The translations under genes and the position numbers were made by a program. A DNA stretch of 27,882 nucleotides from positions 1 through 27,882 of the IMG/VR virus record IMGVR_UViG_3300044643_001041; one strand, given 5' to 3'. The notes under the pieces were generated by a model. The model made no database searches. It was given only the letters and a program-made list of their open reading frames with translations, and had not been told where the DNA came from. Shown in pieces: positions 2,275-23,743 of the stretch. The stretch comes from a virus. Numbering within the stretch: position 1 is the first letter of the stretch; every line of letters begins with the position of its first letter.

Positions 2275-2511
2275 TCAAAGACCAGCGAGCTCGCGAATGC
2301 TCAACTTGATCTTGCGTTTCTTTGCTTCAGAGAGGAGCTTGTCCCAGTGCCACTGCGGGATGCGGCCAGAGGTGCCCTTCTTCTCGGCACCTACCTGCCA
2401 CCTGGACACGGTGGACTTGTCCACATTCAGGACCCTGCCCAATTCGCACACGCCGCCGAAGCGCTCGATCACGATTTGCGCCGGTGTTCCGGTCTTATTC
2501 ATTTGTTCCAT
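2275..2511 (-). CDS. Small HTH regulator (Cro/CII-position protein)
   Basis: 78-residue protein with a helix-turn-helix: GGVCELGRVLNVDKSTVSRW at about residues 19-38 fits the recognition-helix pattern. The tail has the IPQWHWDKLL...ELAGL pattern seen in many small phage DNA-binding proteins. It is transcribed divergently from the CI-like repressor and lies directly upstream of the replication gene, the place of Cro or CII in lambdoid phages. The segment VDKSTVSRW is close to the CII helix (VDKSQISRW, recalled), but the protein lacks the rest of CII. The start at 2511 shares the palindromic TTATATG with the repressor; an in-frame ATG at 2502 has a slightly better GGA site and is a real alternative. 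The regulatory role is inferred from fold and place. Confidence 0.75.
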   Translation of the reverse strand: MEQMNKTGTPAQIVIERFGGVCELGRVLNVDKSTVSRWQVGAEKKGTSGRIPQWHWDKLLSEAKKRKIKLSIRELAGL

Positions 2512-2561
2512 ATAACTTGCTCAAAATGGTTGGGATAGACTCAAGGGATAGTACTTATATG
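2509..2561. promoter_or_regulatory. Divergent switch region with candidate operators
   Basis: The 47-bp gap between the divergent regulators is bounded by a perfect inverted repeat, CATATAA at 2509-2515 and TTATATG at 2555-2561, so both genes begin within TTAT-ATG. Inside lie two direct copies of GGGATAG (2532-2538 and 2545-2551), 13 bp apart. These are candidate half-sites for the repressor or the small HTH protein. No binding evidence exists beyond symmetry and location. Confidence 0.5.
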
Positions 2562-2576
2562 ACTGAGAGATGCCAA
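2548..2576 (-). promoter_or_regulatory. Candidate leftward early promoter
   Basis: On the minus strand TTGGCA (complement of 2571-2576) and TACTAT (complement of 2548-2553) are separated by 17 bases, matching sigma-70 at 5/6 and 4/6. It would start RNA near 2541 and drive the small HTH gene and the primase-helicase. It overlaps the start of the repressor gene and one GGGATAG copy, so a bound repressor could block it. Confidence 0.45.
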
Positions 2577-3188
2577 GAGATGGGAAAACCTCGACAGCCC
2601 GGCATCGACCGCGATTGGTTCCTCGATCGCCTCCGAGGCAGGAAGATTTCACAGCGCAAGCTCGCGCAGCACCTGGGCTTGGATCCTGCGGCCATCACGC
2701 TAATCCTGCAAGACCGCAGGAAGATCACCAGCAAAGAAGCCCATGAGGTAGCAGGCCTCTTGGGTGTAAGCGTGGCCGAGGTGCTGCGCCGTGCGGGTGT
2801 GCCCGTCTCTGATGATGTCAGACGCGTTCCCATTTCGGGCACCGTAGGCAGCAAGGGCGTAATCACCCACCTGCCGGCCAAGACCCACGACATGGTCGTG
2901 TGCCCAGCTGATGTGCCCAACACAGGCTTTGCCCTCCAGGTGCGCGTGCCAAGCAGCCATAAGGACGGCTGGCTCTACTTTGTCTCTGGCGAGCAGGTCG
3001 CACCTGAGACCATGCTCGACAAGTACGTCATCGCTGTCACCGACGATGGCCGCACTCACTCATGCGTAATCAAGCGCGGCTACAAGAGCGGAACCTTCAA
3101 TCTCCTGCTCAACAGCAACACCACCGACATCCTCGAGAACGAGCACATTGCCTGGGTCTCCCCCGTGATCTGGGTGCGCCCCCTATAA
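2559..3188 (+). CDS. CI-like repressor, HTH plus S24-like C-terminal domain
   Basis: 209 residues if started at ATG 2559, which has AAGGGA ten bases upstream; ATG 2580 is possible with GAGAGA. The N-terminal third is an XRE-type helix-turn-helix (SQRKLAQHLGLDPAAITLIL, about residues 33-52, then EAHEVAGLLGVSVAEVL). The C-terminal half has the outline of the LexA/CI S24 fold: VPISGTVGSKG, GFALQVRV..., DGWLYFV, VIAVTDDG, then CVIKRGYKSG with a Lys in the place of the catalytic Lys. The usual serine context (GDSM.P) is replaced by VPSSHKDG and no Ala-Gly cleavage pair is seen in the linker, so RecA-driven self-cleavage is doubtful. It probably maintains lysogeny by repressing the leftward early promoter, and may also act on the promoter at 3258. 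The repressor call is strong; the fate of its protease domain is inference. Confidence 0.85.
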   Translation: MTERCQEMGKPRQPGIDRDWFLDRLRGRKISQRKLAQHLGLDPAAITLILQDRRKITSKEAHEVAGLLGVSVAEVLRRAGVPVSDDVRRVPISGTVGSKGVITHLPAKTHDMVVCPADVPNTGFALQVRVPSSHKDGWLYFVSGEQVAPETMLDKYVIAVTDDGRTHSCVIKRGYKSGTFNLLLNSNTTDILENEHIAWVSPVIWVRPL

Positions 3189-7632: not shown

Positions 7633-7973
7633 TGGAGAACGCGATGGCATTAGCTCCAATTGAGCACTGGCTCCAGTGCATGCTCGGCGAAATAAAAGTA
7701 CCAAACGTGCGCGGCCACCGTCGCTACGTCGATGGCATGTATGTGCCAGCCGATGAAGCTTCACGCAAGGTCGTCTTTGAAATAGTCCAGGCGCATGGGG
7801 ATCTGTGCGCCCAGGACATCCTGAAGCTGTCTGGGTTTCAAAAGACGACGATCTATCGAGCGCTTGATCAACTCGTCAATGAGGGCGTTCTCGACACAGT
7901 CAAAGCGACAACGCCGACAAAGAACGGCCGCTACCTCAAGATCTACATCATCAAAAAGAGAACATCGTTATGA
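7632..7973 (+). CDS. Winged helix-turn-helix protein
   Basis: 113 residues from ATG 7632, in TGATG overlap with the exonuclease stop. ATG 7644 has a better-spaced GGAG and could be the true start. The C-terminal half is a clear winged helix: VFEIVQAHGDLCAQDILKLS, FQKTTIYRALDQLVNEGVLD, then a basic wing (TVKATTPTKNGRYLKIYIIKK). The N-terminal part has Trp, Cys and Arg-rich segments (APIEHWLQCMLGEI...RGHRRYVDG). It may regulate the operon or act as an accessory DNA-binding factor beside the resolvase; the sequence does not decide. Confidence 0.7.
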   Translation: MENAMALAPIEHWLQCMLGEIKVPNVRGHRRYVDGMYVPADEASRKVVFEIVQAHGDLCAQDILKLSGFQKTTIYRALDQLVNEGVLDTVKATTPTKNGRYLKIYIIKKRTSL

Positions 7974-8449
7974 GCTACACAATCGGATTTGACCCAGGTC
8001 TGGACGGCGCCTTCACCGTCCTAGACGACAATTCACAGATCGTCCAGACCTTTGACATGCCTACCGTCGAGGTGAAGGTGGGCTCGAGCATGAAGCGCAA
8101 GGTCGCCCCCCAGGCGATTGTCGCGGAGCTCCAGCTGTTCACCCGCGAGCCCTGCTTTGCCGTGGTCGAGAGCGTGGCCGCAAGGCCTGGGCAGGGTGTG
8201 ACCTCCATGTTCGGCTTTGGTCGCTCCCTAGGCGTCCTAGAGGGGCTCCTAGCGGGTCTGATGATCCCCTACCAGCTGGTGCCTCCTCAGACCTGGTCTA
8301 AGGCTATGAAGCTTGCGCCTGGCAAAGGAGCCAGCCGGCAGCGGGCAATGGAGCTCTGGCCCGCCCACGCCGGTGAGTTCAAGCGCGTCAAAGACGACGG
8401 GAGAGCGGATTCAGCCCTGCTTGCCCTTTATGCGATATTGCACCGTTGA
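7970..8449 (+). CDS. RuvC-like Holliday junction resolvase
   Basis: 159 residues, close to RuvC length (about 170). It starts in ATGA overlap with the previous gene. The RNase H-fold acidic residues are in place: Asp8 in GFDPGLDGAF, Glu67 in CFAVVES, and Asp143/Asp147 in KDDGRADSALLA. The segment PPQTWSKAMKL is typical of phage RuvC relatives. It should cut four-way junctions arising from phage recombination and replication before packaging. It closes the recombination operon; the excisionase gene begins 14 bases later. Confidence 0.85.
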   Translation: MSYTIGFDPGLDGAFTVLDDNSQIVQTFDMPTVEVKVGSSMKRKVAPQAIVAELQLFTREPCFAVVESVAARPGQGVTSMFGFGRSLGVLEGLLAGLMIPYQLVPPQTWSKAMKLAPGKGASRQRAMELWPAHAGEFKRVKDDGRADSALLALYAILHR

Positions 8450-8453
8450 TAAT

Positions 8454-8483
8454 TTGACAACACATGACACTTAAAACTATATT
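8454..8483 (+). promoter_or_regulatory. Strong candidate promoter overlapping the xis start
   Basis: A perfect -35 TTGACA (8454-8459) and TATATT (8478-8483, 5/6) are 18 bases apart. RNA would begin near 8490, downstream of the excisionase ATG at 8464, so this transcript could express integrase but not a full excisionase. TGACA is repeated at 8455-8459 and 8465-8469, one helical turn apart, a possible activator or repressor site. Confidence 0.6.
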
Positions 8484-8766
8484 TGAGACTGCGGGTGAGT
8501 TAAGCGTCTCTCCCCGTACTGTGAGACGTCTGATCGACAAGGGCGCCATCCCTGCATACCGGGTGGCAGGCCTCTGGAGGTTGGACGTTGATGAAGTCAA
8601 ACGAGCGATGCAACACCAACGAAAGGAACCAGGATGCGAAAACCCAAGCTATCGAAATGCCTCCAATGGCGAGGCGGTCTCATTCACACTGACATCACGA
8701 TCGGCGGTCAGAGAATTAGAGTCTCTACTGAAACGGCCGACCCGGAAAAAGCGAAAGCCTTCTTAA
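8464..8766 (+). CDS. xis: Excisionase-like HTH protein
   Basis: 100 residues. The first 50 are a MerR/excisionase-type helix-turn-helix (TAGELSVSPRTVRRLIDKG, AIPAYRVAGLWRLDVDEVKRAM), as in HTH_17 excisionases that bind beside the att site and turn integrase toward excision. The remaining half is basic and low in pattern (LLKRPTRKKRKPS), and its last 133 bases overlap the integrase gene in another frame. No ribosome site is visible before the ATG, so translation is probably weak or coupled to the resolvase stop 14 bases upstream. A consensus-like promoter lies across its first codons. It could instead be an operon regulator, but position favours excisionase. Confidence 0.72.
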   Translation: MTLKTIFETAGELSVSPRTVRRLIDKGAIPAYRVAGLWRLDVDEVKRAMQHQRKEPGCENPSYRNASNGEAVSFTLTSRSAVRELESLLKRPTRKKRKPS

Positions 8767-9656
8767 AGCGCGTCGAGGAAGACGCCTACAACCGCATCAA
8801 GCTGGGCGAGAAGCCTCGCCGCACTTTCGAGGAAGCGTGCGTGCGTTGGCTGCAAGAAAAGGCCGACAAGAAGAGCCTGCACAGCGATGAGGAGAAGATT
8901 CGCTTCTGGAAGCAGCACCTGGCCGGCAAGTTCATCGACCAGATCGATCGGGACATGATCGCGGATCTGCTGTCAGCCCATCGTGGTGAAGCTGCACCGG
9001 CCACCAAGAACCGCCACGTTGCATTCATTCGCGCCCTGCTTTGCATGGCTCGCGATGAGTGGAAGTGGATCGCCGGCGTGCCCAAGTTCCAGACCTACAA
9101 CGAGCCAAAGGTGCGCGTGATGTTCGCCACCGCCGAGCAATTCCAGGTACTACTCGACAACCTCAAGTCACCGTACCGCGAAGCAGCGATTGTTGCCGTA
9201 GCCACCGGCCTGCGCCGTGCCAACGTCTTTGGCCTGCGCTGGGATCACGTTGACCTCGAGCGTGGCGTGGCTTGGATCGATGCCGACGACGCCAAAGCCG
9301 GCCAAGCGATCGGGGTGCCGTTGAACACCGATGCCCAGGCGGCGATTCGCAAGCAGTTGGACAAGCACAGCGAGCTCGTATTTGAGGGTAAGTGGCGGGT
9401 ACTACCAGACGCCTGGAAACGTGCTGTGAAGGCCGCAGGCCTGCCTGAGAGCTTCCGCTGGCACGACCTGCGTCATACCTTCGCCAGCTGGCATGCGATG
9501 GCTGGAACGCCGTTGAACGTCATCCAGGAGCTCGGTGGTTGGGCGACTCCAGGCATGGTGCAGAAGTACGCGCACCTGTCCAAGTCGCACCTGATCGAGC
9601 AAGCGCAGAGGATTTCGATTAGCCCGAAGCCGGCCCTTCAGGTCGTCAACGGTTAA
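8634..9656 (+). CDS. int: Tyrosine integrase
   Basis: 340 residues from ATG 8634, preceded by AAAGGAACCAGG. All catalytic residues of the tyrosine recombinases are visible: Arg194 (TGLRRAN), Lys221 (DDAKAGQ), His277 and Arg280 (HDLRHTF), Trp303 (LGGWATPGMVQ) and the nucleophile Tyr312 (KYAHLS). An N-terminal arm-binding region and a core-binding SAM-like domain (about residues 63-150) precede them. It integrates the phage at the host tRNA-Cys gene, whose 3' half lies 64 bases downstream as attP. Its reading frame overlaps the excisionase gene by 133 bases. It should be expressed both by the upstream operon and from the promoter at 8454-8483. Confidence 0.93.
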   Translation: MRKPKLSKCLQWRGGLIHTDITIGGQRIRVSTETADPEKAKAFLKRVEEDAYNRIKLGEKPRRTFEEACVRWLQEKADKKSLHSDEEKIRFWKQHLAGKFIDQIDRDMIADLLSAHRGEAAPATKNRHVAFIRALLCMARDEWKWIAGVPKFQTYNEPKVRVMFATAEQFQVLLDNLKSPYREAAIVAVATGLRRANVFGLRWDHVDLERGVAWIDADDAKAGQAIGVPLNTDAQAAIRKQLDKHSELVFEGKWRVLPDAWKRAVKAAGLPESFRWHDLRHTFASWHAMAGTPLNVIQELGGWATPGMVQKYAHLSKSHLIEQAQRISISPKPALQVVNG

Positions 9657-9670
9657 TCCAAGTCACAAAC

Positions 9671-9679
9671 ACGCCACAG
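9671..9679 (+). repeat. Candidate integrase arm site 1
   Basis: ACGCCACAG, 41 bases before the tRNA-Cys core on the integrase side. The same nine bases recur at 9860-9868 on the other side, and ACGCCAC occurs inverted at 9783-9789. Repeats flanking a core are how integrase arm sites look; binding is inferred. Confidence 0.4.
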
Positions 9680-9720
9680 TGGGCTTTTCGTGTACTCGTC
9701 AAAACTCGTGATTATGAGAG

Positions 9721-9766
9721 TGGAGGCGGGGGTCGGAATCGAACCGGCGTACACGGATTTGCAGTC
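9721..9766 (-). other. attP: attP core: 3' half of tRNA-Cys(GCA)
   Basis: On the minus strand these 46 bases read from the anticodon arm (ACTGCAAATCC, anticodon GCA) through the T arm (GGTTCGATTCC) to GCCTCCA, including CCA. Upstream of the anticodon loop the sequence stops resembling a tRNA: no D arm or 5' acceptor strand follows. This is therefore not a working tRNA gene but the shared core that restores the host tRNA-Cys after integration. It lies directly after the integrase gene and has phage genes on both sides, so it is attP rather than attL or attR. The T stem as written has one C-A mismatch, which may be natural to the host tRNA. Confidence 0.85.
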
Positions 9767-9782
9767 GGATTGAGTAGAACCC

Positions 9783-9789
9783 GTGGCGT
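9783..9789 (-). repeat. Candidate integrase arm site 2 (inverted)
   Basis: GTGGCGT on the plus strand, the inverse of ACGCCAC, 17 bases beyond the tRNA-like core. It is one of three copies around attP. Confidence 0.35.
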
Positions 9790-9816
9790 GACAAATCAAT
9801 AACTTAGAAAACTTCG

Positions 9817-9840
9817 ACGGGGCAGAAATGCCCCGTTTTT
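9817..9840 (+). terminator. Rho-independent terminator beyond attP
   Basis: ACGGGGCA (9817-9824), a GAAA loop, TGCCCCGT (9829-9836) and then further T to 9840 make an 8-bp GC-rich stem with a T-run for rightward transcripts. It would end the integrase message in the free phage. Because it lies on the far side of the attP core, it becomes separated from int after integration. It might also stop leftward late RNA, but on that strand the T-rich stretch is four bases away and weak. Confidence 0.85.
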
Positions 9841-9859
9841 GTCTGGTTGTGACACAGAT

Positions 9860-9868
9860 ACGCCACAG
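9860..9868 (+). repeat. Candidate integrase arm site 3
   Basis: ACGCCACAG, identical to 9671-9679, on the opposite side of the core and 19 bases after the terminator. A partial copy, ACGCCGCA, follows at 9871. Confidence 0.4.
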
Positions 9869-9923
9869 CCACGCCGCATGCACGCATTGACGTACTCTGC
9901 ATGCGTAGCCGTTTTCTCAATGC

Positions 9924-22753: not shown

Positions 22754-23743
22754 TTAAGCCGATGTGTCAAACAAGCGACCCTGGAACTGCGCTCCAGAAC
22801 AACAGAGATTGCCCGCCCACGCTAAAATTTGAACCTCGGCGTCCTGGTTGATGGAGTAGCGGCGATCAGGTGACAGCGGAACCATGTTGCGGTCACGGTG
22901 AGGACGCCAAGAGATGTACTTGGTGTTCAGGAAGAACGCCGTCTTTGTCGGACATGCGCCGCCGATACCGCCGTCGAGCACAACGTCAGCGTCCATGAAC
23001 TTAATCGAGGGGAAGCCAAGGTTTGCCTGAGCAGGATCAGTGAAGCGCTGCTGTGGCTGCAAGGAGCCCATGTAGTAGGCCCACATTGCGTTGTCCATAA
23101 CGATCAGGTCAGGACGATCGCTGCCACGGACCAGGTTGGCCCAGACTGCGTTCATGTATGTCTGAATGTTGGACGACGAGATTGCTGCGCCGCCATCGAC
23201 GTTTGCGTCGAAAGCGTAGTTGCGCCAGAAGGCCCAAGTAGCGCGATCGATTCCACCGTATGTGCCACTCGAAGGATCGGTGGCCACAGCAGCGTCGAGT
23301 CCGGTCACTTCCTTGCCACCGTCGCCAGTGCCGTCGGAGTAGATCGAGGTCGATAGCTGGTTAGCCATCGTGCTTTCAGCGACGTTGATGCGTGCTTCCA
23401 TCAAGTCGATCATCTGCTCGCGGCCAGCGTTTTGCAGCTGCTCGAGGCCGCTGATTACGACAGGCACTGCGAACTGCTTGATCTGGTACTCGGCTGCGCT
23501 GATAACGTCAGCAGCAGCAACGGGCAGCAGGTCGTATCCGCTGTAAAAGCCAGCGTTTGGGTTCTCAGCAAATGAGAGTTCTTCGAGGATGACGTTACCG
23601 CCAGAGAACGTGCGAACCTTGCCGCGCTGATTCAGGCGCTGAAGGATGGCGTTGTTCTTGGTGACGTTGTCAGCGATTTGACGCGAACGGGACTGAATGG
23701 TGGTTGCGACGATGTCGCTAACCGAAGGATTGGCAAATGCCAT
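22754..23743 (-). CDS. Major capsid protein
   Basis: 329 residues from ATG 23743 with AGGAG eight bases before it. The sequence has the layout of podophage coat proteins: a helical N-arm (NPSVSDIVATTIQSRSRQIA, NVTKNNAILQRLNQRGKVRT), GGNVILEELSFAENPNAGFY and YQIKQFAVPVVISGLEQLQN. It then has a long spine helix (REQMIDLMEARINVAESTMA) and RPDLIVMDNAMWAYYMGSLQ, which recur in HK97-fold capsids. It is preceded by the scaffold gene and followed by a small decoration candidate. It has its own candidate promoter and terminator, fitting its need for high expression. Confidence 0.88.
   Translation of the reverse strand: MAFANPSVSDIVATTIQSRSRQIADNVTKNNAILQRLNQRGKVRTFSGGNVILEELSFAENPNAGFYSGYDLLPVAAADVISAAEYQIKQFAVPVVISGLEQLQNAGREQMIDLMEARINVAESTMANQLSTSIYSDGTGDGGKEVTGLDAAVATDPSSGTYGGIDRATWAFWRNYAFDANVDGGAAISSSNIQTYMNAVWANLVRGSDRPDLIVMDNAMWAYYMGSLQPQQRFTDPAQANLGFPSIKFMDADVVLDGGIGGACPTKTAFFLNTKYISWRPHRDRNMVPLSPDRRYSINQDAEVQILAWAGNLCCSGAQFQGRLFDTSA

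Follow-up and report, generated by a model that had tools for sequence, protein, structure and literature searches.

An integrase promoter predicted across the start of the excisionase gene in an uncultured temperate phage

Results

The segment at positions 8454-8490 is, in all likelihood, a sigma-70-type promoter dedicated to the integrase, from which an RNA beginning at about 8490 would give Int without Xis. The window analysed here, 27,882 bp long, comes from IMG/VR as a virus record, and the most likely reading of its sequence at this place is that of a dedicated integrase promoter inside which the excisionase gene xis begins. The assignment is based on hexamers and spacing kept across diverged xis genes, on the recurrence of such a promoter over the xis ATG, and on the presence of the same type of promoter before int in relatives that lack xis. 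A promoter giving integrase without excisionase had been proposed in a preliminary description of this DNA, and comparison with relatives, both those with diverged xis and those without xis, now supports the proposal.

Gene context

Genes in this part of the window read rightward in the order exonuclease, small winged-helix-like protein, RuvC, HTH_17 excisionase-like gene and tyrosine integrase (Table 1). The ruvC, xis and int genes are co-directional, with a gap of 14 nt between ruvC and xis and an overlap of 133 nt, in different frames, between xis and int. The xis product scores 36.8 bits against PF12728 (cutoff 27), the HTH_17 domain comprising residues 5-52, and it matches the excisionase family PHROG 1840/66 at E ~4e-8; as a small HTH_17 protein adjoining a tyrosine integrase it has the character of an HTH_17 excisionase, with a presumed role in excision. 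Elsewhere in the window (2275-3188), a Cro-like gene (minus strand) and a repressor gene (plus strand) point away from each other, the latter being oriented like xis, int and the recombination genes. The major capsid protein (22754-23743) is 69% identical to that of Stenotrophomonas phage BUCT555 and 63% to that of Myxococcus phage Mx8; no such int module was found in the stretch of BUCT555 examined.

Table 1. Positions of the integrase module features in the window
Feature	Position	Strand	Basis or remark
RuvC-like resolvase gene (ruvC)	7970..8449	+	PHROG 1770, E=1e-32
-35 hexamer TTGACA	8454..8459	+	sits where the xis Shine-Dalgarno would be
xis, excisionase-like HTH_17 protein, 100 aa	8464..8766	+	PF12728, E=4.6e-9; PHROG 1840/66
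-10 hexamer TATATT	8478..8483	+	encoded by xis codons 5-7 (ACT ATA TTT)
Predicted RNA start	8488..8492	+	5-9 nt past the -10, from hexamer positions
int Shine-Dalgarno AAGGA	8623..8627	+	sequence
int, tyrosine integrase, 340 aa	8634..9656	+	PF00589, E=1e-29; PHROG 1, E=6e-63
Arm-type repeat CACAAACACGCCACAG	9664..9679	+	putative arm site
attP core, 43-nt 3' end of tRNA-Cys gene	9721..9763	-	1 mismatch to bacterial tRNA-Cys 3' end
Rho-independent terminator stem, then T run	9816..9837 (to ~9840)	+	fold z=-4.0; past int and attP

The predicted promoter element

TTGACA at 8454-8459 and TATATT at 8478-8483, separated by 18 bp, agree with the consensus at 11 of 12 positions and, as the preliminary description had it, constitute the best sigma-70 match on either strand of the window, with a score of 13.8 compared to 10.5 for the runner-up under an E. 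coli weight scheme that may not suit the actual host. An equal score was reached in 4 of 60 random windows having the dinucleotide content of the original (0.07 matches per window, ~7%); the top rank, taken alone, is modestly significant and weak evidence for a promoter. For the 120-nt stretch after RuvC, the match has p ~0.002, whether it is compared with the remainder of the window or with shuffles of the stretch itself. The -35 is located in the gap between ruvC and xis and the -10 within the first xis codons, one of which, ATA, is rare here (~4 of 150 Ile codons). When xis was recoded synonymously with the upstream DNA held fixed, an equal promoter arose seldom (P 0.0035, 0.003, 0.002, 0.024 and 0.024 in five lineages), a result that is inflated by the tendency of gene starts to be AT-rich. 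The fold of the predicted 5' leader is unremarkable (z=-0.8). An antisense candidate, TTAACT-16-TATAGT (8503-8476, minus strand), ranks fourth in the window and has its TATA in common with the integrase promoter; its -35 is not seen in the related locus L004, and the candidate was set aside.

The xis ATG (8464) lies inside the promoter spacer and no Shine-Dalgarno precedes it. An in-frame TGA (8455-8457), itself part of the -35 hexamer, bounds the open reading frame upstream, leaving the ATG as the sole possible xis start between that stop and the HTH. Further in-frame starts are GTG 8521 (codon 20) and then ATG 8608 (codon 49); the former is the first start-type codon and is located inside the HTH, in agreement with the earlier statement that no in-frame ATG follows before this domain. 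The RNA start proposed at ~8490, past the excisionase ATG, likewise fits the hexamer positions, and the predicted RNA would be devoid of the xis start with int intact. Because the -35 takes the place of the xis Shine-Dalgarno, translation of Xis is probably low.

Relatives carrying xis

Relatives were gathered with a RuvC query, which gave 70 loci. No relatives were found with xis as single query, and int as single query returned one in viral contigs (L002, 42% identical) and one in genomes (L153, 33% identical). A wide search with an xis profile, itself short, in the class of G001 yielded many matches to proteins of very different size.

In the loci L003-L010, ruvC is 88-94% identical to that of the window at the DNA level and xis only 66%. 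TTGACA is identical in these loci, the 18-bp spacing is the same and the -10 reads TATACT, which together with the TATATT of the window gives TATA(T/C)T; the xis ATG is placed one codon further downstream, yet the hexamers and their spacing are kept. Two loci with diverged xis genes, L011 (TTGATA-17-TATTAT) and L013 (TTGACA-17-GACAAT), have the best sigma-70 match of the whole locus across the xis ATG, and that of L013 has the promoter form of the relatives without xis (GTTGCGACAATCTCAAC), with the xis ATG inside it. A weaker match across the xis ATG, second in rank, is present in L016, where a Shine-Dalgarno (GGAGG) stands before xis, unlike in the other lineages. Between the window and L004, ruvC (7970-8449) forms an island of ~94% DNA identity with flanks of 66-73%, a pattern of mosaic exchange in which one break falls close to the promoter and xis start.

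Relatives without xis

Most other relatives lack such a xis gene, and int there usually follows directly after RuvC. Their typical promoter is TTGAC(A/G)-17-GA(T/C)AAT, with the -10 mostly ~35-47 nt before the int ATG (distances cover the loci up to L040). In L014 and L017, int is 661 and 1416 nt from RuvC, respectively, and the promoter still adjoins int. Across 17 sequence clusters having int at ≤400 nt from RuvC, promoter matches are enriched after RuvC, with a combined p of 5e-16 against the rest of the locus and of 8e-17 for the same place against shuffles, values that overstate independence, given the common ancestry of clusters and lineages, and that serve as guides only. There is no promoter enrichment after RuvC in the 9 clusters where no int was detected close by (p=0.14). 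When all viral contigs were scanned blindly for TTGACR-N17-GAYAATCTCAYCA, the pattern was found in 28, and 23 of these have this integrase family directly downstream and co-directional. A good promoter match is missing from L018 and L036, where int is nearby, and from L022, where it is further off.

In L039, L040, L042 and L047, unrelated small ORFs (62-90 aa) are situated ~70-410 nt after RuvC, between the int promoter and int; one of them matches PHROG 1273 (unknown function), and for the rest there are no matches or marginal ones. Different accessory genes seem to have been swapped in under the integrase promoter of these loci.

Attachment site and terminator

Further copies similar to CACAAACACGCCACAG are present at 9853-9868 and 9864-9879, so that the repeats occur on both sides of the attP core. 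The exact 43-nt core was not found in 369 genomes from the class to which G001 belongs, and Rfam gave nothing above its cut-offs at 9600-9900. As attP has int on one side and the lysis genes on the other, within DNA of the phage, the record probably represents the free and not the integrated form. Upon integration, int would be parted from the terminator beyond attP, as in the geometry of lambda sib. L006, which is closely related but encodes another integrase, appears to have a tRNA-Asn-like attP just past int and a terminator (~7654-7900, read by eye), so that related phages would use different tRNA genes.

Discussion

Control of the promoter and alternative readings

Lambda pI is activated by CII. 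A real integrase promoter under control of the lambda pI type, hence silent until a CII analogue acts or shut by bound repressor, Xis or Int, has the lambda precedent in its favour, together with the HTH repressor and small Cro-like protein encoded at ~2.3-3.2 kb; we nevertheless consider it rather unlikely. The hexamers are near consensus, which suggests a promoter active without an activator, and no cII-type protein is found among the scanned products; since a promoter so close to consensus would hardly need an activator of the CII type, regulation is probably unlike that in lambda. Repression by bound repressor, Xis or Int may still occur, but no operator was recognised: no inverted or direct repeats occur in 8400-8560, and no word is common to the promoter and the attP arm region, which argues against autorepression of the KplE1 type. 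The two TGACA copies, 10 bp apart (8455 and 8465), had been considered a possible control site. The pair is real, but the second copy is absent in L003-L010, and with neither other repeats nor attP-arm words nearby, we reject it as an operator.

It is improbable that the hexamers are a chance product of the AT-rich ruvC-xis junction and the xis codons, with int expressed only from read-through RNA that contains xis. Equally good matches in 4 of 60 random windows, the common AT-richness of gene starts, and a junction that the closest relatives share by recent descent would allow it; against it, several xis lineages with different sequences have the best match of their locus in the corresponding position, and such matches stand directly before int in relatives without xis, as they do ahead of int in 23 of the 28 contigs of the blind scan. 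Very improbable is a site driving the excisionase itself, from a start upstream of the ATG (e.g., a leaderless xis from GATAAT, 8448-8453) or through an alternative start downstream: xis has no Shine-Dalgarno and the -10-like GATAAT is ~11 nt ahead of its ATG, but GATAAT lacks a -35 at normal spacing and is not conserved (GAGAAT in L003-L010), for which the leaderless start was discarded, and an RNA beginning at 8490 would offer no in-frame start-type codon ahead of the one inside the HTH.

Comparison with known integrase promoters

In phage lambda, PI is located within xis and int is transcribed independently of xis; transcripts from another promoter, further upstream, carry xis and int together (PMC2951348). 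The module described here is arranged alike: the -10 (8478-8483) lies between the xis ATG (8464) and the int ATG (8634, with Shine-Dalgarno), upstream of a predicted RNA start, and xis and int are adjoining, co-directional and, judged from the gene order, also readable from the upstream operon, whose RNA would carry both. The analogy with lambda pI drawn in the preliminary description thus stands for the layout, a promoter over the xis start that serves int without xis (PMC2951348), and probably not for CII-type activation, given that both hexamers here are near consensus and such an activator seems unneeded. The terminator beyond attP is a further likeness, to the sib/tI geometry. Unlike in lambda, ruvC is a neighbour, Xis is of the HTH_17 type and a tRNA-Cys sequence serves as attP core; no sequence relation is shown. 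As a prediction, the idea of the preliminary description has good support. It amounts to a lambda-like layout in a phage group for which the papers searched do not describe it, and not to a novel type of system.

Other known arrangements provide instructive comparison. The PintS promoters of the KplE1/HK620 type overlap attL and are repressed by Int and the RDF. A dedicated int promoter and the uncoupling of int from RDF expression are common to that type and to the present module; here, however, the int promoter does not overlap att, the attP core (9721-9763) being past int and 1.2 kb from the promoter, and the arm-type word is absent from the promoter. In the P2/186 type, int is on the lysogenic transcript. 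Expression of int is separable from that of the RDF gene there as well, whereas in the window xis adjoins int, overlaps it and points the same way, and a separate promoter is predicted for int.

Proposed mechanism and significance

With the dedicated integrase promoter as the preferred reading, RNA would start at ~8490, past the xis ATG, and continue through int, which is preceded by a good Shine-Dalgarno, and across attP as far as the terminator (9816-9840). Such RNA would yield Int without Xis, thus favouring integration, and would not permit excision. Xis would come only from RNA entering from upstream via ruvC, presumably from the early or lytic operon, and this read-through RNA would supply Xis and Int together, with excision as the result. 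Transcription from the promoter, its start point and timing, and the upstream RNA as the supply of Xis are what we infer from the arrangement of genes and signals. Tentatively, and with somewhat less than even confidence, we suggest that the integrase promoter is the older element and that the excisionase gene was later placed over it, with the first residues of Xis encoded by promoter DNA and the -35 replacing the ribosome site of Xis. If true, a single 30-bp element would both drive Int alone and keep translation of Xis low, and the Int:Xis ratio would be set without any activator.

A short search of the open-access literature found no description of this layout in the phage group. The lambda trick of an integrase promoter hidden in the start of the excisionase gene would be found in an uncultured temperate phage group far from lambda, with a promoter that has persisted through several diverged versions of xis and seems to require no activator. 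The natural variants, with or without xis or with other small genes inserted, may constitute a test set for how the integrase:excisionase ratio is set.
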